Shown: positions 52,391-62,751 of the stretch, in pieces | Layout: every line of letters starts with the position of its first letter | How positions within the stretch are numbered: position 1 is the stretch's first letter | From: Streptomyces coryli | GTDB lineage: Bacteria; Actinomycetota; Actinomycetes; Streptomycetales; Streptomycetaceae | Reading direction: 5' to 3' | Length of the DNA stretch: 64,000 nt | Assembly (NCBI RefSeq): GCF_011044975.1 | Contig: NZ_JAAKZV010000003.1 | Span: 1 to 64,000, forward strand | Program-made: the position numbers and the translations under genes | Notes under the pieces: model-generated | Told to the model about the DNA's origin: nothing | Database searches by the model: none | The model's input: only the letters and a program-made list of their open reading frames with translations

Positions 52391-52899
52391 CCGTGCGTCA
52401 GGGACTTGAAGTTCGCCAGCACGGCGCCGATGACCGCTGCCCCGGCGCCGGCCAGCAGGGCGCTCTTGCGGGTCCGGCCGGCCAGGCCGCCCGCCGTGCT
52501 GCAGAAGCCGAAGAGGAGGGCCAGCGTCACCCAGCGGGACAGCGTCAGGGCCCGTTCCTCGGAAAGGACTCCGAAGCCGGCCAGCAGCAGGAAGCACAGC
52601 GGCGCGGGCGCGGCCATGAAGGCGCCCGCGCCTTCGGTCAGGGCTTTTGCCCGCTCGGCGCGCGTGAGCGGCCGGCCGCGCTCCACCTCCTGACCGATCG
52701 CCGTGGCGAACCCTTCCGCGAGCACGATTCCGGTGACCGTGGCCGCGAGCAGCGACGCGGCCTCGAACGCCGGCGGCGGATGCTCTTCCAGGGCGAGCAG
52801 GAGCGCCAGGACCACGATGCAGCCGTACACGCCGCGGGCGGCGATCAGCCCGCCCTTGGCCACGGAGAGCCGCCGTGGTGTCCGAAGCCGATGCGTCAC
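52387..52899 (-). CDS. Integral membrane protein of unknown function
   Basis: A 170-residue hydrophobic protein with about five predicted spans (for example GVYGCIVVLALLLAL, AASLLAATVTGIVLAEG, APLCFLLLAGFGVLS, WVTLALLFGFC, AVIGAVLANF). I do not recognise a family. The GTG start 52899 overlaps the stop of the 497-residue membrane protein upstream (GTGA), so the two are translationally coupled and probably work together. The operon promoter is in the 54390-54546 region. Confidence 0.75.
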   Translation of the reverse strand: MTHRLRTPRRLSVAKGGLIAARGVYGCIVVLALLLALEEHPPPAFEAASLLAATVTGIVLAEGFATAIGQEVERGRPLTRAERAKALTEGAGAFMAAPAPLCFLLLAGFGVLSEERALTLSRWVTLALLFGFCSTAGGLAGRTRKSALLAGAGAAVIGAVLANFKSLTHG

Positions 52900-54389
52900 C
52901 CCGGGGCCCCGGTGACCGCCGCCTTCGCGGACTGACCCGAGGTCGGCTCCGCCTCCGCTTCCTCCTGCTCGGCCTGCCCGTTCTCCGTCGGCTCGGCCCC
53001 GGCGTGCTGCCCGTCGGCCGGGGCCCCCGATCGCGCGAGTACGGTGACGAGCACCTCGTATCCGAGCAGCAGCACCGCCACCACCAGCAGAGCGGTCCAG
53101 GTGGTCAGCGCCAGCGCCACGATCGCGGCGAGCACCGCGCCCGCGATGCGCAGCCCGTCGACGTACCGGCGGATCCAGGCCCTGAGGGCCGTGCTGCCCG
53201 CGACCTGGCGGGTGGCCCGCGCCGTCAGCCGGCCGGTGGCCCTGGCGCCCTGCACCGTGTAGCGGCGCAGGCCGACGGGCAGCCGGCCGGGGCCGACCAG
53301 ATACGCGAGTACGGCCAGGGCGATGCCGAGCCAGAGCAGCTGGTCGCCGCGTTCGCGCAAGGTGGTGAAGAGCGTGTACATCGCGGATCGCGCGCCGTCC
53401 TCGTAGACGCCTCCCGGCAGCTCGCGGAGGACCTGGTCCTTCACCGCGCGCAGGATGCTCGTGAGCACGGTTACGGAGATCACCAGCGCGAGTCCGAGCT
53501 GGAGCACCGTCCGGCGGCGGTTCGGCGAGACCCACAGGGCGATGCCGAGGAGCACGAGGGTGCCGATCACCAGTCCCAGCACGCCGCGCTTGAAGAGCAG
53601 CACCGCGTCCTGCAGTTGACCGAGCTTGTCGCGGTCGTACAGGGTGATCTTCCCGAAGTCGGCGGGCAGCGAGACCCCGAGGGCGCTCTCGATCTTGTCG
53701 TGCAGACCCGGCGGGATCTCTCCCGAGCCGATGGCCGGCAGGTCGAGGTCCTTGCCGAAGAGCGTGGGCAGTTGGCTCTCGAGCACGTTCAGCACGTCGT
53801 TCATCAGGGGCAGCAGATTCAGCGTCACCGTGCTGCCCTGGACCGACACGTTGTCGTTGCGGTCCTCCAGCACCGCGACGATACGCGCGTGTGCGGTGCG
53901 GTTCGCCTTCTCCCAGAGCTGCTGGAATTCGTCGGTCTTCAGCAGCGCGGAGACCTTGTCCCTGACGAAGTCCCGCACCGCCCCGCTGACCGGCGCGGCG
54001 AGGAACCCGGCCTTCGGCGGCAGGGCTTCGGCCAGCCGGTCCTCGACGTCCACCGCGGTGAAGATCTGCTCGGTGACCAGCTTGGTCACCGCCGCGTTGA
54101 CCGCCGGCTCCTCCGGCATCGGTCCGACGGTGGCCACCCACCGGTCGGTGTTCAGCGTCGTCCGCGCGCCCCATACGCCGATCACCGAAGCGACCGTGCA
54201 GAAGCCGACGACGGCGATCAGCAGAGCGGCGATGGTCCTACGGATCGCGAGCCCGAGCCCGTGCCGCCGGGTGCGTGCCGCTGATTCGGCGCGCAGCGCG
54301 GCCACCTCCGCCCGCAGCCGGTCAAGTTCGCCCTGGCCATTGCCCGGGCTCGTCGGCGGGATCGGCCCGCTGGTTTCGGGTGCTGCCAT
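52896..54389 (-). CDS. Large membrane protein with extracytoplasmic domain
   Basis: A 497-residue membrane protein I cannot assign to a named family. A short coiled-coil-like start (ELDRLRAEVAALRAESA, 21-37) precedes one membrane helix (about 50-73). A ~210-residue external domain follows (RWVATVGPMPEEPAVNAAV ... SLPADFGKITLYD). Then come four or five helices (for example LGLVIGTLVLLGIALWV and GLALVISVTVLTSILRA). The tail is glutamate-rich. GGGGGAG precedes ATG 54389. It shares a divergent promoter region, containing a TCACCC-N5-GGGTGA site, with the DUF6325 gene. Confidence 0.78.
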   Translation of the reverse strand: MAAPETSGPIPPTSPGNGQGELDRLRAEVAALRAESAARTRRHGLGLAIRRTIAALLIAVVGFCTVASVIGVWGARTTLNTDRWVATVGPMPEEPAVNAAVTKLVTEQIFTAVDVEDRLAEALPPKAGFLAAPVSGAVRDFVRDKVSALLKTDEFQQLWEKANRTAHARIVAVLEDRNDNVSVQGSTVTLNLLPLMNDVLNVLESQLPTLFGKDLDLPAIGSGEIPPGLHDKIESALGVSLPADFGKITLYDRDKLGQLQDAVLLFKRGVLGLVIGTLVLLGIALWVSPNRRRTVLQLGLALVISVTVLTSILRAVKDQVLRELPGGVYEDGARSAMYTLFTTLRERGDQLLWLGIALAVLAYLVGPGRLPVGLRRYTVQGARATGRLTARATRQVAGSTALRAWIRRYVDGLRIAGAVLAAIVALALTTWTALLVVAVLLLGYEVLVTVLARSGAPADGQHAGAEPTENGQAEQEEAEAEPTSGQSAKAAVTGAPG

Positions 54390-54471
54390 GACTCCCCCTC
54401 GGCCGGGGCGCCGCGCGGCTGTGCCCTTGCGGCGCTGCGGCCCACCCTCGGACCTGGCGGCCCGTCGCCCA

Positions 54472-54488
54472 TCACCCTTTCCGGGTGA
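54472..54488. promoter_or_regulatory. Conserved inverted repeat, site 1 (perfect)
   Basis: TCACCC, TTTCC, GGGTGA in the divergent gap between genes starting at 54389 and 54547. Same half-sites and five-base spacer as at 56069 and 57067. Centre is 67 bases from the DUF6325 start and 91 from the other. Confidence 0.65.
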
Positions 54489-54546
54489 CGCGCCGCGGGC
54501 CGCCGTCCGACTGGATGGACAGCAGTGCCGAGCGGAAGGAGACATC

Positions 54547-55101
54547 ATGATCAAGATCGGTCCGGTACAGATGCTGGCGGTCGAGTTCGGGCCCGACGCA
54601 CAGTTCGAAGGGAAGATCATCCGCGAGCTGGAGAGCCTCGAGCGCTTCGGCTTCATCCGGGTCATCGATCTGCTCTTCGTGCTCAAGCAGGAGGACGGCA
54701 CCCTGATGGCCCGCGACTACCAGGCGGAAGGCCTGGGAAGCACCATCGCCGCGCTGCTCGGCCTCGGTGAACGGACGCGTCAAGAGGTCGCGGAGCTCGA
54801 GCAGATGGCGGACGAGGGCTACCCCTTCGGGCTGACCGGAGACGACATCAAGGAGATGGGCAACGACCTCAAGCCGGGCGCCGCCGCGGGATACGTCCTG
54901 CTCGAGCACGTGTGGGCGAGGACGCTGCGGCGGCTGATCCGCGAAGCGGGCGGCGTGCCCACCGCGGAGGGGTTCCTCACCCCGGACACGCTCGGACCGG
55001 TGGCCTCCGAGGTCGCGCAGGCCGTGCTCGCACTCGACGCGATGACCGCCGAGGAGTCGTCCGGAGGTCTCGCGGCCAGGCGGCTGGGGAAATCGACCTG
55101 A
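54547..55101 (+). CDS. DUF6325 family protein
   Basis: A 184-residue protein of the DUF6325 type. The N-terminal ferredoxin-like half reads IGPVQMLAVEFGPDAQFEGK and FIRVIDLLFVLKQEDGTLMA. The C-terminal half is helical and ends in an Ala-rich segment of the form VAQAVLALDAMTAEE. The family has no known reaction and is seen with actinobacterial stress or gas-vesicle-like gene groups. GGAAGGAG precedes the ATG at the usual distance. Monocistronic, ended by the hairpin at 55112-55164. Confidence 0.82.
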   Translation: MIKIGPVQMLAVEFGPDAQFEGKIIRELESLERFGFIRVIDLLFVLKQEDGTLMARDYQAEGLGSTIAALLGLGERTRQEVAELEQMADEGYPFGLTGDDIKEMGNDLKPGAAAGYVLLEHVWARTLRRLIREAGGVPTAEGFLTPDTLGPVASEVAQAVLALDAMTAEESSGGLAARRLGKST

Positions 55102-55111
55102 CCCAGGCCTT

Positions 55112-55164
55112 CCCGGAGCCTGTTCCGCCGGCAGCGCAGTGGGGCCGGGCCGGCAGGCTCCGGG
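55112..55164. terminator. Bidirectional terminator between convergent genes
   Basis: CCCGGAGCCTG (55112-55122) and its exact inverse CAGGCTCCGGG (55154-55164) form an eleven-pair stem; the 31-base loop contains further GCCGG/CCGGC pairing. It fills the 90-base gap between the DUF6325 and LuxR stops. Confidence 0.75.
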
Positions 55165-55191
55165 ACGAAGTCCGGGAACGCACCCCCTTGT

Positions 55192-55692
55192 TCACTCGAG
55201 CCGGAGTCCGCGGGCGCGGCGGACGGCGGCCTCCCGGGTGGTGACGTCCAGCTTCCGGTAGATGGCACGCACATGGCTCTTGACCGTATTCACCGACAGG
55301 TACAGCGCGTCGCCGATCTCCCGCAGCGACTGCTCGCTCGACAGGTGCCGCAGCACGATGGCTTCCCGCTCGGTGAGCGGCGGGGCGGGCTCCGGCCGGT
55401 GCGAGCCGCGCCCCGCCCGCGCCGTCCGCGGCAGACCGTAGTCGGCCGAAGCCAGGATCGCGGCGGACTCGTCCAGCAACAGCTCGGTGAGGCGTGGATC
55501 GCGGATCACATGGGCGGCGTCGCAGAGCGTGTCGGCGAACGAGGACACGAACAGGGACACCACCGCCTCCGCGGTGAACGGGTCGCAGCCGAGCGCGCTG
55601 AGCTCGCTGCGCAGGGTGTCCGCGCGCCCGGGGCCGGGAGAACTGAGCGCCGGCCGCGCCTGCCGTAACGGACGGACGAATGGTGCAGGCAT
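55192..55692 (-). CDS. LuxR-type transcriptional regulator with early TTA codon
   Basis: A 166-residue regulator. The C-terminal ~65 residues are a complete LuxR/NarL helix-turn-helix: PPLTEREAIVLRHLSSEQSL, EIGDALYLSVNTVKSHVRAIYRKLDV. The N-terminal ~90 residues are helical with no receiver or sensor domain I recognise. Start ATG 55692 (MPAPFVRPL), GGAGGGGG upstream. Codon 9 is TTA (55666-55668), so translation should depend on the bldA tRNA in Streptomyces. It lies among the genes carrying the TCACCC-N5-GGGTGA motif and is the only DNA-binding protein there. Confidence 0.87.
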   Translation of the reverse strand: MPAPFVRPLRQARPALSSPGPGRADTLRSELSALGCDPFTAEAVVSLFVSSFADTLCDAAHVIRDPRLTELLLDESAAILASADYGLPRTARAGRGSHRPEPAPPLTEREAIVLRHLSSEQSLREIGDALYLSVNTVKSHVRAIYRKLDVTTREAAVRRARGLRLE

Positions 55693-55752
55693 GTGCTCAC
55701 CCCCTCCTGGGGACTGTCGCATATGCATCTTCCGCCCGCCGCGGCGCGGCCG

Positions 55753-55772
55753 ATAGGGCCTAATTGCCCTAT
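55753..55772. promoter_or_regulatory. Inverted repeat ATAGGGC-N6-GCCCTAT before the LuxR gene
   Basis: ATAGGGC (55753-55759), CTAATT, GCCCTAT (55766-55772), exact inverse halves. It overlaps the end of the 78-residue gene and lies 61 bases before the LuxR start. It could be that gene's terminator or an autoregulatory operator. Confidence 0.5.
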
Positions 55773-56005
55773 TCGCTCTCCTGATTGGGTCTGCCGCCGG
55801 GCAGCCGGCGCACTTCGACAAGCTCCAGGCCGAGAGACTGGATGCGGTCCAGGATCCCGTACAGCGCCGCCTGGTCCAGAGGGCTGCCGCGCAGCACGGT
55901 CTCCGCCGGATGAACCGTGATGGTCAGCTCGCTGAACGCTTCTTCCAGCGCCCCGACCACCCGTCCGTTGATCCGGATCTCGAAGCCGCTTCCGGGTGCG
56001 ACCAT
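55769..56005 (-). CDS. Small conserved protein of unknown function
   Basis: A 78-residue acidic protein (FEIRINGRVVGALEEAF, LTITVHPAETVLRG, AALYGILDRIQSLGLELVEV) predicted as a compact beta-alpha domain. I do not recognise a named family, although similar short proteins occur beside stress genes in Streptomyces (memory, unverified). GAGGTGACGCC before the ATG supports translation. Divergent from the 154-residue membrane protein, with site 2 of the shared motif in between. LuxR gene follows downstream on the same strand. Confidence 0.65.
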   Translation of the reverse strand: MVAPGSGFEIRINGRVVGALEEAFSELTITVHPAETVLRGSPLDQAALYGILDRIQSLGLELVEVRRLPGGRPNQESE

Positions 56006-56068
56006 GGCGTCACCTCGTTCGGGCTGGTGGACGTGCCCGAATCCTCCGTCGCGGCCGGGCGGAATACA

Positions 56069-56085
56069 TCACCCCGTGTGGGTGA
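56069..56085. promoter_or_regulatory. Conserved inverted repeat, site 2 (perfect)
   Basis: TCACCC, CGTGT, GGGTGA, centred between divergent genes starting at 56005 and 56142, 72 and 65 bases from the centre respectively. Confidence 0.65.
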
Positions 56086-56141
56086 GTACGAACCGGGGTG
56101 CCGCGCAGGATGCTCCAACTCCCGTAGAGGAGGAGCCAGAA

Positions 56142-56606
56142 ATGACTGATCAGACTTCACCGGAACGGTCCGCCGGAAGCGTGGCGCCGCCCCGCGCGGC
56201 GGAAGTGGAGAGTGGGCCGAATCCCGTGGCCGTCGGCTTCTCGGTGCTTGCCGGCAGCATGATGTTGCTGACCGGCATCTACCACGCCATCGTCGGGCTG
56301 GCCGCGATCATCGACGACAAGTTCTTCGTCGCCACGGCCAACTACAGCTTCGAGTTCGATACGACCACATGGGGATGGCTGCAGCTCATCTCCGGGCTCG
56401 TCCTCGTCGTTACGGCGGGCGGCATCTTCGGCGGCCATACCTGGGCACGCGTCGTCGGCATCGCCGTCGCGGGGCTGAGCGCCGTCGAGAGCTTCTTCTT
56501 CATCCCGTACCACCCGGTGTGGGCGATCCTGATCATCGCCTTCGACGTGGTGGCGATCTGGGCGCTCTCGGTGTACGGCAGCAACGGCCGGCCGCGGCAG
56601 GGGTGA
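56142..56606 (+). CDS. DUF7144-type four-helix membrane protein
   Basis: A 154-residue membrane protein with four spans: VAVGFSVLAGSMMLLTGIYH, WGWLQLISGLVLVVTAGG, ARVVGIAVAGLSAVESFFF, WAILIIAFDVVAIWALSVY (each cut to its core). A DDKFFVATANYSFEFDTTTW loop follows span one. This corresponds to the DUF7144 family. AGAGGAGGAG lies upstream of ATG 56142. Function unknown; probable envelope or stress protein under the shared motif. Confidence 0.82.
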   Translation: MTDQTSPERSAGSVAPPRAAEVESGPNPVAVGFSVLAGSMMLLTGIYHAIVGLAAIIDDKFFVATANYSFEFDTTTWGWLQLISGLVLVVTAGGIFGGHTWARVVGIAVAGLSAVESFFFIPYHPVWAILIIAFDVVAIWALSVYGSNGRPRQG

Positions 56607-56625
56607 ACCGGGCCGGCCGGCAGCC

Positions 56626-57009
56626 CTACATGGAGAGCACCTTGGTCTTCGCCTGCAGATACTCCTGATCCGTCAGCGCACCGGTCTGGCGGAGCTCGGC
56701 GAGCTGGGAAAGCTGCCTCGTTTCGCCGTTCCCCGCGCCCGCCGGGCCGCCGTGCCCGAACCGGTCGTCGCGCGCCTGCGCGGCACGCATCTCCCGCTCG
56801 TTCATCGCGTGACTGCGGACGACGAGGTAGGCGAAGACGCCGACGAAGGGCAGCACGATGACGCAGACCAGCCAGCCGGTCTTCGCCCAGCCGCTCAGGT
56901 CGTAGCTGCGGAAGATGTCGACGATCGTCTTGAACACCAGCACCAGCCACAGCACCCAGAGGAAGAACCACAGCATGGTCAGAAACACGTTCAGCAGCGG
57001 ATAGTCCAT
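56626..57009 (-). CDS. Membrane protein with PLDc_N and SHOCT domains
   Basis: A 127-residue protein. The N-terminal PLDc_N region has two spans (NVFLTMLWFFLWVLWLVLVF; TGWLVCVIVLPFVGVFAYLV). A C-terminal SHOCT motif LAELRQTGALTDQEYLQAK follows a Gly-rich linker. Small proteins like this are common in stress-induced groups and may tether or oligomerise membrane partners. Divergent from the DUF2252 gene, with site 3 of the shared motif between. Convergent with the DUF7144 gene at 19 bases. Confidence 0.85.
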   Translation of the reverse strand: MDYPLLNVFLTMLWFFLWVLWLVLVFKTIVDIFRSYDLSGWAKTGWLVCVIVLPFVGVFAYLVVRSHAMNEREMRAAQARDDRFGHGGPAGAGNGETRQLSQLAELRQTGALTDQEYLQAKTKVLSM

Positions 57010-57066
57010 TGCCGCCTCCCAGGTAGTCGATGAGGTGCACGGTGACCCCCACCGCGGGGCGTCACA

Positions 57067-57083
57067 TCACCCGGCGGGGGTGA
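57067..57083. promoter_or_regulatory. Conserved inverted repeat, site 3 (perfect)
   Basis: TCACCC, GGCGG, GGGTGA, extended by A and T on the outer edges. It lies in the 150-base divergent gap, 66 bases from the SHOCT gene start (57009) and 85 from the DUF2252 start (57160). Confidence 0.65.
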
Positions 57084-57159
57084 TGCCCGCCCGCCGCATC
57101 CGCACGAGTGTTGGTGACCCTGCGCGAAGAGCGGTGCGCCGGAGGAGGAGGGCCTGACG

Positions 57160-58563
57160 ATGACCGGAAGCCGGACAGTGCATCTCACCCCGGAGGAGCG
57201 GGCTGCCCGCGGGAAGGCGGCGCGCGGCCCGGTGCCCCGCTCCGCGCACGCCGAGTTCACGCCGCCACCGGATCGCGCCGATCCCGTGAGCCTGCTCGAG
57301 GCGCAGTCGGCGACCCGGGTGCAGGAGCTGATCCCGGTGCGTTACGGGCGGATGCTGGAGTCGCCGTTCCGGTTCTACCGGGGCGCCGCCGCCATCATGG
57401 CCGCCGATCTGGCCCGCACCCCCAGCACGGGCATCCGGGCGCAGCTGTGCGGCGACGCGCACCTGCTCAACTTCCGGCTGCTGGCCTCCGCCGAGCGCCA
57501 TCTGATGTTCGACATCAACGACTTCGACGAGACGCTCCCCGGCCCCTGGGAATGGGACGTCAAGCGGCTCGCGGCGAGCCTGGCCATGGCCGGCCGCAGC
57601 AACGGCTTCACCGACGCGGAACGGTCGGGCGTGGTGCGCGCGGCCGTCGGCTCGTACCGGACCTGGATGGGCCGCTTCGCCGGCATGCGCAATCTCGAGG
57701 TCTGGTACGCGCGGATCGACGCCGACGAGCTCTACCGGACCCTCACCGAGCGCAGCGAGGAGGGGGTGACCGCGCGGACGTCCCGGTCCCTGGCCAAGGC
57801 ACGCGGCAAGGACCATCTGCACGCCTTCGAGAAGCTCACCCACCTCGTCAAGGGAGAGCGCAGGATCACTCCCGACCATCCGCTGATCACCCCGATCGAT
57901 GTCCTGCTCCCGGATGCCGAGCGGGCCTCGCTGGAGGAGCAGATGCGCCGGCTGGTCGACCAGTACGGCGAAAGCCTGCCGTCGGACCGCCGGGCGCTGC
58001 TGCGGCAGTTCCGGCTGGTGGACATGGCCCGCAAGGTCGTCGGCGTCGGCAGTGTGGGCACCCGCTGCTGGATCATTCTGATGCTCGGCCGCGATGATCA
58101 CGATCCGCTGCTGCTGCAGGCCAAGGAAGCCCAGAACTCCGTCCTCGCCGAGTACGCGGGACCGAGCGAGTTCGAGAGCCAGGGGCAGCGTGTCGTCGCC
58201 GGTCAGCGGCTGATGCAGGCCTCGAGCGACATCCTGCTCGGCTGGGAGCGCACCGAGGGGATCGACGGCCGCGAACGCGACTTCTACGTCCGGCAGTTGC
58301 ACGACTGGAAGGGCATCGCGCTGGTCGATTCCATGAAGCCGCCCACCCTGAAGCTCTTCGGCCGGGTCTGCGGCGCCAGCCTGGCCCGGGCGCACGCCCG
58401 GTCAGGAGACCGCATCGCCATCGCCGCCTATCTCGGTCGCGGGGACGCCTTCGACCTCGCCCTGGCGGAGTTCGCCGAGGCCTACGCGGATCAGAACGAG
58501 CGCGACTTCGACGCCCTGGGCGCGGCGGTGCGCAGTGGGAGGGTGAGGGCAGGACAGCTGTAG
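57160..58563 (+). CDS. DUF2252 family kinase-like protein
   Basis: A 467-residue DUF2252 protein with a probable protein-kinase/aminoglycoside-phosphotransferase-like fold. Motifs include FYRGAAAIMAADLA, the Brenner-like CGDAHLLNFRLLAS and the metal-site-like FDINDFDETLPGPWEWDVKRL broken here at 20. VGSVGTRCWIILMLGRDD and KGIALVDSM follow. The substrate is unknown; members occur in many actinobacteria. Monocistronic, with site 3 upstream. Confidence 0.88.
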   Translation: MTGSRTVHLTPEERAARGKAARGPVPRSAHAEFTPPPDRADPVSLLEAQSATRVQELIPVRYGRMLESPFRFYRGAAAIMAADLARTPSTGIRAQLCGDAHLLNFRLLASAERHLMFDINDFDETLPGPWEWDVKRLAASLAMAGRSNGFTDAERSGVVRAAVGSYRTWMGRFAGMRNLEVWYARIDADELYRTLTERSEEGVTARTSRSLAKARGKDHLHAFEKLTHLVKGERRITPDHPLITPIDVLLPDAERASLEEQMRRLVDQYGESLPSDRRALLRQFRLVDMARKVVGVGSVGTRCWIILMLGRDDHDPLLLQAKEAQNSVLAEYAGPSEFESQGQRVVAGQRLMQASSDILLGWERTEGIDGRERDFYVRQLHDWKGIALVDSMKPPTLKLFGRVCGASLARAHARSGDRIAIAAYLGRGDAFDLALAEFAEAYADQNERDFDALGAAVRSGRVRAGQL

Positions 58564-58579
58564 CGCGGCCCGGCCGCCG

Positions 58580-59023
58580 TCACTTCATGCCCCAGTCGTA
58601 CAGGACCACGGTGCGCACGAGCCGGTCCTGGACCGAGGCGTTGCGGCGGTCGACCAGCACCCAGGCGAGGCCCAGCGGAAAGAGGACGCACAGCACGGCG
58701 CGCAGCGCCGACCTGCCGATGCTCAGCGGACGCCCGGAGGCGCCCACCAAGCGCAGTCCTGCGACCTGCTTGCCCGCCGTGCGGCCCGCCATCGCCCCGC
58801 CGACCGTGAGATAGCCGACGCAGACGAGGTAACCGCCCACGACGGCACCGGGCCGTGAGATCCGCGGCAGCTCGAACGCGGGACCGGTCAGCAGGAAGTC
58901 CGCCAGGCCGTACGCCAGCAGGGCAGCACCGCAGATCGCGCCGACCAGCGCCAGATCGATCAGATCCGCCGCCGCCCGGGAGGCGATTCCGGCCCGTTGC
59001 CCCTGGACGGCCGGCGGCGTCAT
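58580..59023 (-). CDS. RDD family membrane protein
   Basis: A 147-residue RDD protein with three spans. ASRAAADLIDLALVGAIC carries the Arg-Asp pattern at the N-terminus; then VVGGYLVCVGYLTVGGAMAG, GRTAGKQVAGLRLV and VLVDRRNASVQDRLVRTVVL, the conserved closing segment. RDD proteins are proposed ion exchangers or accessory membrane proteins. Start ATG 59023 overlaps the stop of the repeat protein (ATGA). Last gene of a three-gene operon. Confidence 0.88.
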   Translation of the reverse strand: MTPPAVQGQRAGIASRAAADLIDLALVGAICGAALLAYGLADFLLTGPAFELPRISRPGAVVGGYLVCVGYLTVGGAMAGRTAGKQVAGLRLVGASGRPLSIGRSALRAVLCVLFPLGLAWVLVDRRNASVQDRLVRTVVLYDWGMK

Positions 59024-59817
59024 GACTCCTCCGCCAGCGGCGCGGGACCGGTCGTGTCCCGCACCGCCGACCGGTTCAGGAGCCGGTCCGCGACCCGGCT
59101 CAGGAACCGGTCCGCGCTCACCCCTCGGTCCCGGAAGGCGTCCACCGCCTCGACCGTCATGGTGCCGCTGGACTCCCGTACGATCCGCGAGAAGTCGATC
59201 TCGTCGAGCACCCGCTGCACGAGGTCCGCGAGATCGAGGCGGTCGATCACCGCGTCGATGTCCGCGCGCGCGACGATCGTATTCACGTCGATCCGTGCCG
59301 CGACGCGATCCACGTCCACGCGTGCGGCGATACGGTCGACGTCGATCCGTTCCGCGGCCCGGTTCATGTCGAGCCGCCCGGCCGCGCGATCGAGGTCGAT
59401 GCGTTCCGCGACACCGTTGAGGTCGACTTCGTCGAGTACCGCGATGGTCGCGTCCCGGACCAGCGCCCGTACGAACTCCTCGGCCGCCGCCCGGTTGCGG
59501 AGCTGCTCGGCCCGGCCGCGCTCGCCCCACCGCGCCACCAAGGGCTGCGCCACGAATCCGGCCAGCGGGCTCAGCCGTGCACCGGCCCCTCTCACCACCC
59601 GCAGCGAGTGCCGCTGGGCCGCGAGCCCCAGCCCGACGGCCGACCACGACACCAGGTGCAGCAGATCCGCGGGCCCGTCCCGGGCCGGCTCTCCGGAATC
59701 CGCAGGGTCCAGCAGCCGCCGCACGACGGAGGCACCGAGCCCGGCCAGGCCGAGCACCACCCGCGATGCCTGCACCACCAAGTCGTCATGGCCGCTTTCC
59801 GGCCCGGCTGCGTCCAT
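59020..59817 (-). CDS. Membrane-associated protein with nine-residue tandem repeats
   Basis: A 265-residue protein. The N-terminal half has hydrophobic segments (VLGLAGLGASVVRRLL; LLHLVSWSAVGLGLA). Residues 131-202 are eight uninterrupted nine-residue repeats of the form (I/V/L)D(L/V/M)(D/N)R(A/V/I)AxR, e.g. IDLDRAAGR, LDMNRAAER, IDVDRIAAR, VDVDRVAAR. I do not recognise a named family, although similar repeats occur in actinobacterial membrane operons (memory). It overlaps the RDD gene (ATGA) and follows the DUF6069 gene by five bases, so these three probably function together. Confidence 0.75.
   Translation of the reverse strand: MDAAGPESGHDDLVVQASRVVLGLAGLGASVVRRLLDPADSGEPARDGPADLLHLVSWSAVGLGLAAQRHSLRVVRGAGARLSPLAGFVAQPLVARWGERGRAEQLRNRAAAEEFVRALVRDATIAVLDEVDLNGVAERIDLDRAAGRLDMNRAAERIDVDRIAARVDVDRVAARIDVNTIVARADIDAVIDRLDLADLVQRVLDEIDFSRIVRESSGTMTVEAVDAFRDRGVSADRFLSRVADRLLNRSAVRDTTGPAPLAEES
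59212..59427 (-). repeat. Coding tandem repeat, eight 27-base units
   Basis: Eight degenerate 27-base units encoding the nine-residue repeats of the preceding entry, with GCGATC/GTCGAC-rich recurring words. The units are diverged at the DNA level, so the array looks old and selected at protein level. Confidence 0.7.
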
Positions 59818-59822
59818 TCACA

Positions 59823-60317
59823 TCAAGTCCGGGGCTGGGTGCGCTGCTCGGTACGGGGCTGCAGGGCCGAATAGCCGATCTGCGGAAGCAGGATCACGAT
59901 GACGAGCCCCACCGCCAGATTGATGAGCGCGGTGGCCCACTGGGTGGCCGGCTTCGCGTCCGTGGTGAAGGGCACGACGGCGAAGATCAGTGTCGTCAGT
60001 CCGATGATCCACGAGAAGAAGCCCAGCGGCTGCGGCGTGAGCGCGACCAGGATCTGCAGGATCAGGGTGGCGATGATCGCGGCGAGCGCGGCCGTGACCA
60101 CATAAGCGGTCGTGCTCGAGTCGCCGAACGCCCCCTCCGTATTGCGGGCGAGCAGCGCGACGTCGAACACTCCCCGGGCGATGAGCACGCCGACCAGCGC
60201 CACCAGTGCGGCGACCACGGCGGTGGCCAGGCCGCCTCCCCAGAGCCGGCCCGCGTCGACTGCGGGCTTCTCGGCCATGGCCGGTGGTGGGCCCTGCTGG
60301 TTCGTCGGTCCGTCCAT
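59823..60317 (-). CDS. DUF6069 family membrane protein
   Basis: A 164-residue protein with four membrane spans: LATAVVAALVALVGVLIARG, YVVTAALAAIIATLILQIL, FFSWIIGLTTLIFAVVPF and ATALINLAVGLVIVILLPQ (cores). The 'VFDVALL' and 'GAFGDSSTTAY' segments are typical of DUF6069. Function unknown. First gene of the DUF6069-repeat protein-RDD operon. A one-mismatch copy of the TCACCC-N5-GGGTGA motif lies 67 bases upstream, at the end of the brkB-like gene. Confidence 0.85.
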   Translation of the reverse strand: MDGPTNQQGPPPAMAEKPAVDAGRLWGGGLATAVVAALVALVGVLIARGVFDVALLARNTEGAFGDSSTTAYVVTAALAAIIATLILQILVALTPQPLGFFSWIIGLTTLIFAVVPFTTDAKPATQWATALINLAVGLVIVILLPQIGYSALQPRTEQRTQPRT

Positions 60318-60383
60318 CGTGGACTTCCTCTCACGGGGGGTGGTGGTATCCCGCGATGGTGCTGCGCCCGCGCCGGGTCCACC

Positions 60384-60400
60384 TCATCCGTCGTGGGTGA
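60384..60400. promoter_or_regulatory. Conserved inverted repeat, site 4 (one mismatch)
   Basis: On the plus strand TCATCC, GTCGT, GGGTGA. It overlaps the last codons of the YihY/BrkB gene and is 67-83 bases upstream of the DUF6069 start, the same spacing as the perfect sites to their genes. Confidence 0.45.
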
Positions 60401-61349
60401 TATCGAAGGCGACGCTGACGCGCTGGCCGGGCAGTCGTTCCTGTTCCCGGGCCAGCAGGGTGAGCGCCTTCTCGTCGGCGGGGGTGGGTTCGTCGTGCCA
60501 GAGGCTGCGCGGACAGAGCCGGAAGGCCCGTACGGCCGATATCTCGCCGCTGAAGACCAGTGCCTGGCTGACGATGTACAGCAACGCGAAGATCCCGACG
60601 ACGGTCGCGAAGCTGCCGTAAACGGGCCCGGACCGGGCGATCAGCAAGGGCAGCAGCGAGGCGCTCACCTCCAGCGTGGCGGTCATCACGAGGGTGGCCG
60701 CCAGCGCCCCGTCCCAGATCTGGCGGACCGGGCGCGGCCTCGCGGTCAGGAGCTTGTGCGCCAGGACCAGGACGATAAAGATCACGGTGAAGGTGCCGAC
60801 GGCGCTGCCCAGCCGCTGCTTCCACGCCGGATGCAGCAACTCGCTGGACAGCGCCGCGAGTCCGGCCGCGATGAAGGCGCCGAGGAGCGTCACGAGCTGG
60901 GTGAGCAGCACCCGGCCGTACCGGCTCGGCAGGGCCGGGCGGTCGCGATACGGCACGGACCAGATCCGGTTGAGCGCGTTGGACCCGGCCAATACGCCAC
61001 CGGTGCCGGACCACAGCAGGCCGAGGCCGCCGACGAGCAAGGGGATGCCGCTCGGCGGGAGCTGGTGGAATGCCTGCTCCACGTCCGTTCGCAGCGAATG
61101 CGGTACAAGCTCGGTGACCAGGTCCTCGCGCAGGGCCGGATGCGCTCTGAGCACCTCGGTGAGGATGCCGACGGCGAACAGCAGCAGGGGGAAGAGGCTG
61201 AGGAAGCCGTAATACGTGAGGAGCGCCGCGAGTTTGCCCCCGTTGTCGTCGGAGTACTTCCGCAGCACCGCGTACGGAAAGCCGAGCGCCCGGTGGCGCT
61301 GCTGCACCCGGTCGACGCGGTGCCAGGTTCGGTCCAGGCGGTCAGGCAC
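60384..61349 (-). CDS. YihY/BrkB family inner-membrane protein
   Basis: A 321-residue membrane protein of the YihY/BrkB family with about six spans. Markers are LAALLTYYGFLSLFPLLLFA, GLGLLWSGTGGVLAGSNALN and the late span YIVSQALVFSGEISAVRAF. The family is implicated in envelope transport; earlier names as ribonuclease BN were in error. GTG 61349 is chosen for an eight-base overlap with the preceding gene; an ATG at 61406 is possible but lies 65 bases inside that gene. Confidence 0.87.
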   Translation of the reverse strand: MPDRLDRTWHRVDRVQQRHRALGFPYAVLRKYSDDNGGKLAALLTYYGFLSLFPLLLFAVGILTEVLRAHPALREDLVTELVPHSLRTDVEQAFHQLPPSGIPLLVGGLGLLWSGTGGVLAGSNALNRIWSVPYRDRPALPSRYGRVLLTQLVTLLGAFIAAGLAALSSELLHPAWKQRLGSAVGTFTVIFIVLVLAHKLLTARPRPVRQIWDGALAATLVMTATLEVSASLLPLLIARSGPVYGSFATVVGIFALLYIVSQALVFSGEISAVRAFRLCPRSLWHDEPTPADEKALTLLAREQERLPGQRVSVAFDITHDG

Positions 61350-61620
61350 GCCGTGTGCGCTGCCGCGCACCGGCTCCCCAGTGGCCGACGTCGAGCAGCA
61401 GGGCAATGGCCACCCAGGCCCATTCCCAGTCGGTCAGGCCGAGGCCCGACTGATGGAGGAGCACGTACACCAGGGTCCCCAAGGGGAAGAACAAGAAACC
61501 GAGCACTGGCCAGGCCCAGCTGCTGAAGGCGTCGTCGACCGCGTTCGGCCGGGCCATCCAGAAGATGAGCAGGGCGAGCCTCGGAAACAGTGCGGCGAAG
61601 AGCACGAACACACAGCCCAT
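61342..61620 (-). CDS. Small three-span membrane protein
   Basis: A 92-residue hydrophobic protein: VLFAALFPRLALLIFWM, then AFSSWAWPVLGFLFFPLGTL and a last span WAWVAIALLLDVGHW. I recognise no specific named family, although similar small proteins are common in actinobacteria. It lies 22 bases after the AI-2E-type gene and overlaps the BrkB-like gene by eight bases, so it is part of a three-gene operon. AGGAATCC-like sequence precedes the ATG. Confidence 0.75.
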   Translation of the reverse strand: MGCVFVLFAALFPRLALLIFWMARPNAVDDAFSSWAWPVLGFLFFPLGTLVYVLLHQSGLGLTDWEWAWVAIALLLDVGHWGAGARQRTRRA

Positions 61621-61642
61621 CGTGGATTCCTCCGGTCGCGCT

Positions 61643-62698
61643 TCAGGGTCGTTGAGGCGGGCTGTCGTGGCTGCTCGCCTGCCGGATCAGCCGTCGGATG
61701 TCCAGGACGATCGCGGTCAGCGGCGCGGCCATCATGACCCCGGCGACGCCGGCGAACACGCCGGCCGCGACCGTCGCGAGCAGCACCACGAGCGGGTGCA
61801 TGCGGAGTGCGGCGCCGAGGGCGAATGGCTGGATCATGTTCTGCAGGGCCCCGTTGGCCAGCAGCACGATCAGCAGCATCCAGATCGCCGTGGTGGTCCC
61901 GCCGGAGCCGAGCGCGAGGAGGACGGCGAAGGCACCGGACACGAGCGCCCCGATGTACGGGACGTAGGCCAGGATGAAGGTCAGCACGGCGATCGCCAGG
62001 ACGGACTCCACCTGGAGGATGAGCGCCCCCACGGCGGTCAGGACGGCGTTCACCAGGCCGATCAGGGTCATCCCTGCGAAGTAGCGGCGGACGAGCGCCG
62101 CCGAGCGGGTGACGGCCTGGTCGGCGAGCGGCGGCCGCAGCGGTATCACCTGGACGACCGTCTTCCGTACCGCTCCCGCGTCCTTGAGCAGGAAGAACAA
62201 CATGTACAGGCCCAGCGTGCAGCCGAGGACGAGCTGGAGCGTGGCGGCCGCGCCGTCGGCCAGCCCGCTGAGCATCGCCGAGAGCACGGTGGGCGCGGCC
62301 TTCTCGATGGCTTGGTGGACGTCCGTGGCCTGCTGCTCGCCGATGCCCAGATCGCCCGCGGTCTCGGCCAGGTTGGTGCCGGCCTCGTCCAGCATGGCGC
62401 CGATGTCGTCGGTCTGGTCGACCAGCCCGGCCACGAACACGATGGCGGAGAAGAGGAGGATGCCGATCACCAGCAGGCAGCCCAGCAGCGCGCCTGCCGC
62501 CCTGGGGACGCGCCGGGCCGCGAGCGCGTCCACGAGCGGCAGCAGCACGGTGGCGAGGGCGGCGGCGATGACCAACGGGAGCAGCAGCGGCCGGAGCACG
62601 GTCAGGATGAAGAGCACGAGGCCGCTCGCGGCCACCAGCCCGGTGAACATCCAGGCCGCGGTGCCCGCGGTGTTCAGACGGCCGGGTGCTCCACGCAT
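61643..62698 (-). CDS. AI-2E transporter family protein
   Basis: A 351-residue membrane protein with about eight spans. PLLLPLVIAAALATVLLPLV, ILAYVPYIGALVSGAFAV, and FALGAALRMHPLVVLLATVA are diagnostic of PF01594-type permeases. Members export small molecules or exchange Na+/H+; autoinducer export is proven for few. ATG 62698 (MRGAPGRLN) is used. A degenerate copy of the shared inverted repeat lies at 62735-62751, 37 bases upstream. Confidence 0.88.
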   Translation of the reverse strand: MRGAPGRLNTAGTAAWMFTGLVAASGLVLFILTVLRPLLLPLVIAAALATVLLPLVDALAARRVPRAAGALLGCLLVIGILLFSAIVFVAGLVDQTDDIGAMLDEAGTNLAETAGDLGIGEQQATDVHQAIEKAAPTVLSAMLSGLADGAAATLQLVLGCTLGLYMLFFLLKDAGAVRKTVVQVIPLRPPLADQAVTRSAALVRRYFAGMTLIGLVNAVLTAVGALILQVESVLAIAVLTFILAYVPYIGALVSGAFAVLLALGSGGTTTAIWMLLIVLLANGALQNMIQPFALGAALRMHPLVVLLATVAAGVFAGVAGVMMAAPLTAIVLDIRRLIRQASSHDSPPQRP

Positions 62699-62734
62699 GC
62701 CCGCCAGGATCCGTGGCCGCCGGTGCTCCCGGCA

Positions 62735-62751
62735 TCCTCCCTGACGGGTGA
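62735..62751. promoter_or_regulatory. Conserved inverted repeat, site 5 (one perfect half)
   Basis: TCCTCC, CTGAC, GGGTGA. One half-site is exact, the other has one mismatch to TCACCC at position three plus one at four. It stands in the 67-base gap before the AI-2E-type operon. Confidence 0.35.

Follow-up and report, generated by a model that had tools for sequence, protein, structure and literature searches.

The first 64,000 nucleotides of contig NZ_JAAKZV010000003.1 of Streptomyces coryli, hereafter the window, contain the inverted repeat TCACCC-N5-GGGTGA in three exact copies and two degenerate ones (Table 1), which raises the question of which protein acts on these sites and to what effect. 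The initial annotation had taken the repeat as the possible mark of a new regulon without naming the type of its regulator. The regulon stands in so far as the sites are conserved and no description of it was found in the open-access literature searched, as far as its text was available; no paper in the open-access collection searched contains any of five spelled-out forms of the motif. What can be added is a regulator type: TCACCC-N5-GGGTGA, with a half-site of about RGRTGA, is probably the operator of large MalT-like LuxR regulators (LALs) of two classes, named here LAL-A and LAL-C, which would act as class II activators.

All exact and degenerate sites are present in the sequence where they had first been placed, with one exact copy in each of three divergent gaps and with centers 45–91 bases from the start codons. 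The count of mismatches alone gives a modest excess: at up to two mismatches, the window holds 10 matches versus 4.2 expected, and 2 of 100 shuffles reach 10. A matrix built from 80 sites of relatives places the five sites at ranks 1–5 in the 64 kb. The window was left out of the training, but none of the 80 sites deviates from the reported consensus at more than one position; the matrix thus owes nothing to the five sites themselves, though it does presuppose the motif. At the score of the site at 54472, 0.017 matches are expected per 64 kb versus 2 observed, and the figures are 0.017 versus 3 at the score of 60384 and 0.23 versus 5 at that of 62735. Chance, or a sequence bias related to coding or to ribosome-binding sites, would have in its favor that exact pairs of a given spacer average one to six per Streptomyces genome. 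With the top five matrix matches of the window all located at gene starts, with sites retained ahead of homologous genes in several orders, and with the comparison of spacers pointing the same way, such an origin is extremely improbable.

Conservation upstream of orthologues, on which the initial annotation had made its regulon depend, is borne out at homologous genes in related genomes. Alignment of the protein DUFA of the window and of Nonomuraea gerenzanensis led to nine loci in Streptomyces, Planobispora, Nonomuraea, Actinoplanes, and Georgenia; DUF7144 as a query in the 8-mer method gave no relatives. In Streptomyces, Nonomuraea, Planobispora, and Georgenia, the sites precede the same gene families and lie near LAL genes with a common DNA-binding helix. 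Each of the nine genomes has 2–9 exact sites, none contains the reversed control pattern, and the Actinoplanes DUFA locus features no exact site. In S. flavofungini (L034; loci of relatives are labeled L, genomes G, and contigs C), exact sites occupy the DUF2252/SHOCT, DUF7144/p78, and DUF6325/DUFA gaps as in the window, and the homologues of the window's proteins are 48–89% identical. At up to one mismatch, N5 sites occur in the DUF6325/DUFA gap of L034, L035, L038, L104, L105, L106, and L109 and in the p78/DUF7144 gap of L034, L036, L038, L042, and L103–L107; the SHOCT/DUF2252 gap carries an N5 site in L034 and L100. The repeat-protein homologue of L034 adjoins RDD and has a one-mismatch site 58 bp upstream, and the AI-2E homologues of L007, L037, and L039 have exact sites upstream. 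In N. gerenzanensis, 40.5 kb in which a number of these families recur contain five exact sites and five with one mismatch. Two exact sites were found in the Embleya NBC_00896 record (3.1 Mb): the first precedes a LAL gene by approximately 255 bp and lies 12–13 kb from DUF6325 and DUFA homologues, while the second lacks an explanation; four other plasmid records (0.5–5.7 Mb) have none. The distance from site to start is 56–57 bp in 8 of 34 pairs for DUF7144, 58–70 bp in 12 of 14 pairs for DUF6325, and 55–72 bp in 18 of 37 pairs for p78.

Eighteen loci of relatives, picked by protein homology and not by motif, hold 26 exact N5 pairs and no exact N4 pair; together with the window they form the 19 group-A loci, with 29 N5 pairs. 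Thirteen LAL-C loci hold 23 exact N5 pairs and no N4 pair, and 12 of these loci were fetched because N5 sites were known there, so that only group A—26 N5 pairs without the window—is a fair test of the spacer. Among 83 one-mismatch N5 sites, the altered half reads AGGTGA in 39 and GGATGA in 17 (5 of 43 when nine other spacers are combined); the half-site is therefore about RGRTGA. The GGATGA half of operator 4, whose start overlaps the stop codon of the BrkB open reading frame, is the second commonest of these variants among relatives.

The N5 sites are also linked to LAL genes. Thirty genomes have a complete listing of exact motifs, 17 of them with a LAL match. In these 17 Streptomyces genomes, 25 of the 52 exact N5 sites are no more than 20 kb away from a LAL gene versus 0.24 expected; 23 of the 25 are within 6 kb, and 14 of the 17 genomes are represented. 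The seed genome G001 contributes 4 of the 25, and without it the count is 21 of 47. For exact N4 pairs, the count within 20 kb is 0 of 30 (7 genomes), and for exact N6 pairs 1 of 45 (12 genomes, one G029 site being unlisted). Genome-wide frequency does not set the motif apart: across 150 Streptomyces genomes, spacers of four and of six bases both give more exact pairs than N5, so that whole-genome frequency is an insensitive test and only the placement is special. The mean number of exact N5 pairs per genome is 2.88 in the 64 genomes with a LAL match versus 1.19 in the 86 without; for N6, it is 2.47 versus 2.91.

That no described Streptomyces regulator has this consensus, as the initial annotation had held, is literally true, but BldM—a protein with a LuxR-type helix-turn-helix (HTH)—has identical half-sites and a spacer one base shorter. 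The BldM Group I consensus of S. venezuelae, TCACcCgnncGgGTGA, is a 6-4-6 palindrome that has both TCACCC and GGGTGA in common with the window sites, and BldM is a transcriptional activator, according to the available part of PMC4125116; Group I sites are cited also in the available part of PMC8914203. N4 pairs are, in addition, slightly commoner in genomes with a LAL match (mean 5.63 versus 4.58 per genome, two-sided p 0.019). That the window sites form a BldM regulon is nevertheless very unlikely: their spacer of 5 does not conform to the 6-4-6 Group I pattern, the homology-chosen loci contain exact N5 pairs but no exact N4 pair, and N4 pairs are present in 147 of 150 Streptomyces genomes, yet none of the 30 listed is near a LAL gene. 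BldM also differs in its developmental target genes and in being an atypical response regulator rather than a LAL. It was rejected as the binder on spacer and placement.

The LALs themselves are encoded by frames of 767–929 amino acids in most loci read. In Streptomyces L034 and L036, the LAL-A gene (frames of 829 and 767 amino acids) adjoins the gene of a short LuxR-type protein, S; in L038, the LAL-A gene is broken and split over two frames. Two LALs, from L034 and L091, feature a C-terminal GerE HTH (50.6 and 50.8 bits, cut-off 23.5) and match the NCBIfam MalT model with 221 and 276 bits, below the equivalog cut-off of 537. AAA_16 scores 29.5 and 32.0 bits (cut-off 32.6); AAA_22 (28.3 bits, cut-off 27) and TPR_MalT (44.5 bits, cut-off 45) were seen in the L091 protein only. 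The LAL-C loci are made up of the same families—DUF7144 with SHOCT, DUF2252 or an ion channel, p78, and LAL—and the LAL-C HTH is 69–80% identical to that of LAL-A, the helix SVNTVKTHLKS being nearly constant. No type-S gene was found in the 13 LAL-C loci, which carry N5 sites; the LAL is therefore the shared factor.

The promoters share a geometry that bears on the mode of action. Sites with 0–1 mismatch were paired with start codons of the listed families lying at most 260 bp away, which yields 138 pairs; an earlier −10 test on 48 hand-picked pairs was repeated over all of them. The pattern A-nnn-T, with A at +22 to +25 from the site edge, occurs in 91 of 138 pairs versus 2–11 at eleven other offsets, and T at +28 occurs in 73. 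On sides without a listed gene, A-nnn-T is found in 59 of 148 cases versus 4–14 at other offsets, perhaps because other genes start there. We read the pattern as a putative −10 element (GAGGAT, CACCAT, GATGCT). A −10 element usually lies 6–7 bases from the transcription start, and this spacing together with the fixed offset puts the operator center near −43. As judged by sequence, the sites would thus lie at the fixed distance near −41 to −43 characteristic of class II activators, overlapping the −35 region and accompanied by a −10 element. Of the 8 promoters in the window, 7 conform to this geometry, the DUF6325 promoter (CTGGAT) being the exception. A −10-like element flanks the palindrome on both sides in two of the three divergent gaps, so that one operator may drive both genes there; the third gap has it on the DUFA side only.

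The palindromes could instead be operators of a repressor. Repressors commonly go with divergent gaps and with palindromes, and the inferred position overlaps the −35 region; however, a −10-like element at one fixed distance is what activators need and repressors do not, which makes a repressor quite unlikely. MalT, an activator according to the available part of PMC9628970, points the same way but is not decisive, since the title of that paper names SCO6993, itself a LAL, a negative regulator.

We infer that a LAL protein—a large putative ATPase with a C-terminal LuxR HTH—is the binder and the activator. It would sit as a dimer, or as a subunit pair of an oligomer, centered near −43 in place of the −35 element, and would recruit RNA polymerase to the −10 hexamer, which occupies +23 to +28 relative to the site edge. 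Since the site is a palindrome, one operator could serve both genes of a divergent pair. By analogy with MalT and IniR, we suggest that the ATPase/TPR part may sense a small molecule as the signal.

LAL-A and LAL-C resemble MalT in matching the MalT model and in carrying GerE, and one variant of the half-site, GGATGA, conforms to the MalT box GGA[TG]GA quoted in the available part of PMC9628970—as expected if the binder is MalT-like; activation would be a further likeness. They differ in that the commonest half-site is GGGTGA, set in an inverted repeat with a 5-base spacer, in their targets (membrane proteins and proteins of unknown function), in the small partner gene p78, and in scores below the equivalog cut-off. 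The mycobacterial IniR combines a MalT-like ATPase with a LuxR-like DNA-binding part and activates iniBAC, which is connected with cell-envelope stress and trehalose; it is said to regulate iniBAC only (PMC5760070, available part), and the terms "palindrome" and "inverted repeat" are absent from the text of that paper. At E ≤ 0.001, the IniR model matched protein S of the window weakly and the LALs not at all. SCO0877, SCO7173, and SCO6993 belong to the same protein class as the LALs, and the available parts of PMC3282765 and PMC9628970 give no operator consensus for them; the operator of SCO6993 "could not be predicted" (PMC9628970). A link to SCO7173 or SCO0877 was rejected: mutagenesis primer ends mismatch at 13–20 of 39 bases at best in 20 LAL loci, which was taken for chance.

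Besides the selection of the LAL-C loci and the N4 excess in genomes with a LAL match, several observations weigh against LALs as the activators. The LAL-A match at E ≤ 1e-60, found in 64 of 150 Streptomyces genomes (8 at 50–100% identity, the others at 33–42%), includes paralogues. Three of the 17 genomes—G027, G048, and G108, the last on a short contig—have no exact site near a LAL gene, and 27 of the 52 exact N5 sites are far from one. Of these, 18 sites in 17 loci were read, and a crude test puts the site within a stop-to-stop frame in 9 of the 17 loci; plausible off-cluster sites are those of second DUF7144-SHOCT loci (L164, L170) and of a Na/H exchanger gene (L167). L041, L104, L106, L107, and L109 have one-mismatch sites only, A-nnn-T is a poor fit to the promoters of DUF6325 (4 of 14), and the kch promoters lack it (0 of 5). 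The sequences are related and not independent, so that p-values overstate. Lastly, the 64-kb window has no LAL gene: tblastn with five LAL proteins and one S protein matched only the HTH of S.

In L034, L036, L038, L103–L107, L109, and L149, the LAL gene adjoins the S gene, where the window has only 90 bp (55102–55191) between S and DUF6325. The regulator in this strain is therefore unlinked or replaced. A precedent for the former is S. fumigatiscleroticus (G002), with the DUF6325/DUFA site on contig C1 and LAL-A on C6. The latter would leave the sites to protein S, itself under operator 2, with the LAL lost. The S helix SVNTVKSH is one residue off the LAL-A helix SVNTVKTH, so that S itself may bind the sites; S and the sites are kept where the LAL is missing, and the fact that the palindromes are intact suggests continuing selection on some binder. 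LAL-C loci, however, carry sites without S, other S proteins vary in the helix (SYNTVK, SHNTVK), and a LAL may be encoded elsewhere in the genome, as in G002; regulation by S is accordingly a possible but rather unlikely solution. For the LAL operator reading, we infer that an unlinked LAL or S would fill the role in this strain. The predicted structure of S (mean predicted local distance difference test [pLDDT] 72, 4 sequences) features three N-terminal helices and the HTH; compared with the PDB, it has no match at E ≤ 0.001, the best hits being LuxR/NarL-type proteins. In the Streptosporangiaceae loci L037, L007, and L039, LAL-A has a second LAL, of type B, next to it, and the type-B HTH resembles that of Streptomyces S, as if S were a reduced LAL-B.

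Of 346 Actinomycetota genomes drawn, 47 contain a p78 homologue. Among the 30 best p78 loci (L118–L147), some of which repeat loci already counted, 21 have a MalT-like LAL match within about 1.5 kb, and the exact N5 pair occurs 11 times (9 loci) with no other spacer from 0 to 20 found more than once. Of the 21 more distant loci (L127–L147), 18 lack an N5 site even when one mismatch is allowed, and most of the HTHs seen there have a different helix. The predicted p78 structure (mean pLDDT 72, 6 sequences) has the order strand-helix-strand-strand-helix-strand and no PDB match at E ≤ 0.001; p78 is a possible co-regulator.

A second arrangement of the half-site is the zero-spacer (N0) palindrome TCACCCGGGTGA, absent from the 64-kb window and found in 16 copies in 11 group-A loci, each upstream of the LAL-A gene. 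It is single or paired and lies roughly 80–130 bp before the apparent LAL-A start; a site of LAL-A autoregulation is our guess. In its widest form, the proposal would be an actinobacteria-wide family of MalT-like ATPases that uses one half-site in two geometries—N5 palindromes firing divergent effector promoters both ways and TCACCCGGGTGA at its own promoter—with p78 as a dedicated partner, the window's strain having dropped the sensor ATPase and retained the HTH-only S instead. This wider scheme is speculative and, as a whole, unlikely.

Table 1. Coordinates of operators, −10-like hexamers, and genes in the window, and of TCACCCGGGTGA in loci of relatives
Feature	Position	Strand	Remarks
Operator 1	54472–54488	no strand	TCACCC-TTTCC-GGGTGA; divergent gap DUF6325 (+)/DUFA (−)
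Operator 2	56069–56085	no strand	TCACCC-CGTGT-GGGTGA; divergent gap p78-LuxR(S) genes (−)/DUF7144 (+)
Operator 3	57067–57083	no strand	TCACCC-GGCGG-GGGTGA; divergent gap SHOCT (−)/DUF2252 (+)
Operator 4	60384–60400	no strand	TCATCC-GTCGT-GGGTGA, one mismatch; upstream of DUF6069-repeat protein-RDD genes (−)
Operator 5 (degenerate)	62735–62751	no strand	TCCTCC-CTGAC-GGGTGA, two mismatches, one perfect half; upstream of AI-2E-p92-BrkB genes (−)
−10-like hexamer GAGGGT, DUFA	54444–54449	−	
−10-like hexamer GAGGAT, p78	56041–56046	−	
−10-like hexamer GATGCT, DUF7144	56109–56114	+	alternative CAGGAT 56106–56111
−10-like hexamer CACCGT, SHOCT	57039–57044	−	
−10-like hexamer GAGTGT, DUF2252	57106–57111	+	
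−10-like hexamer CACCAT, DUF6069	60356–60361	−	
−10-like hexamer GATCCT, AI-2E	62706–62711	−	would give nearly leaderless mRNA
DUFA, 497-aa protein	52896–54389	−	no Pfam or NCBIfam match
DUF6325-type protein	54547–55101	+	no Pfam or NCBIfam match; homologue H32 annotated DUF6325
Short LuxR-type protein S, 166 aa	55192–55692	−	N-terminal helices and GerE HTH; LAL gene adjoins S gene in relatives
p78, small unannotated protein	55769–56005	−	frequent companion of LAL genes in Actinomycetota
DUF7144 protein	56142–56606	+	
SHOCT protein	56626–57009	−	Pfam SHOCT 26.1 bits, cut-off 27
DUF2252 protein	57160–58563	+	
RDD protein	58580–59023	−	
Nine-residue repeat protein	59020–59817	−	repeat spotted by eye in translation
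DUF6069 protein	59823–60317	−	
BrkB/YihY protein	60384–61406	−	
AI-2E family transporter	61643–62698	−	
TCACCCGGGTGA	L007 10931/10959; L034 8733/8753; L036 8991/9008; L037 4102; L038 8734; L039 4650/4678		
TCACCCGGGTGA	L103 10177/10194; L105 16159; L106 9568; L107 11510; L109 6988		

In relatives, the genes near exact sites include those of a P-type ATPase, an amino acid permease, a sulphate permease, and a Na/H exchanger, a PPK2 gene behind a DUF7144 gene, and cytochrome bd subunit I with a pyridine nucleotide-disulphide oxidoreductase; in Actinoplanes, the gene of a DUF308 protein lies beside a LAL. Many of these genes encode membrane or energy proteins, and from this gene content a function in envelope or ion/energy stress may be guessed; the stress/envelope label of the initial annotation is likewise a guess based on the genes present. 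The Actinoplanes site (L053, G008:C38) is an exact N5 site beside the end of the LAL gene and the DUF308 (HdeD-like) gene, possibly a further LAL-target pair. Exact N5 palindromes also lie inside similar reading frames of three Streptomyces genomes (L163 2019, L168 1997, L045 1501); the frame presumably encodes a CDP-alcohol phosphatidyltransferase, and these copies look unrelated to the regulon.

LAL regulators are numerous in actinomycetes—S. coelicolor has 14 according to the available part of PMC3282765—and an operator consensus for such a regulon was not found in the searched literature as far as available. A consensus with spacing and promoter geometry would make the regulon readable from any genome and would provide a common context for DUF7144, DUF6325, DUF2252, SHOCT, DUF6069, and p78. 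If true, a dozen genes of unknown function would be tied into one testable regulon, and the search for its signal would be reduced to a reporter assay.

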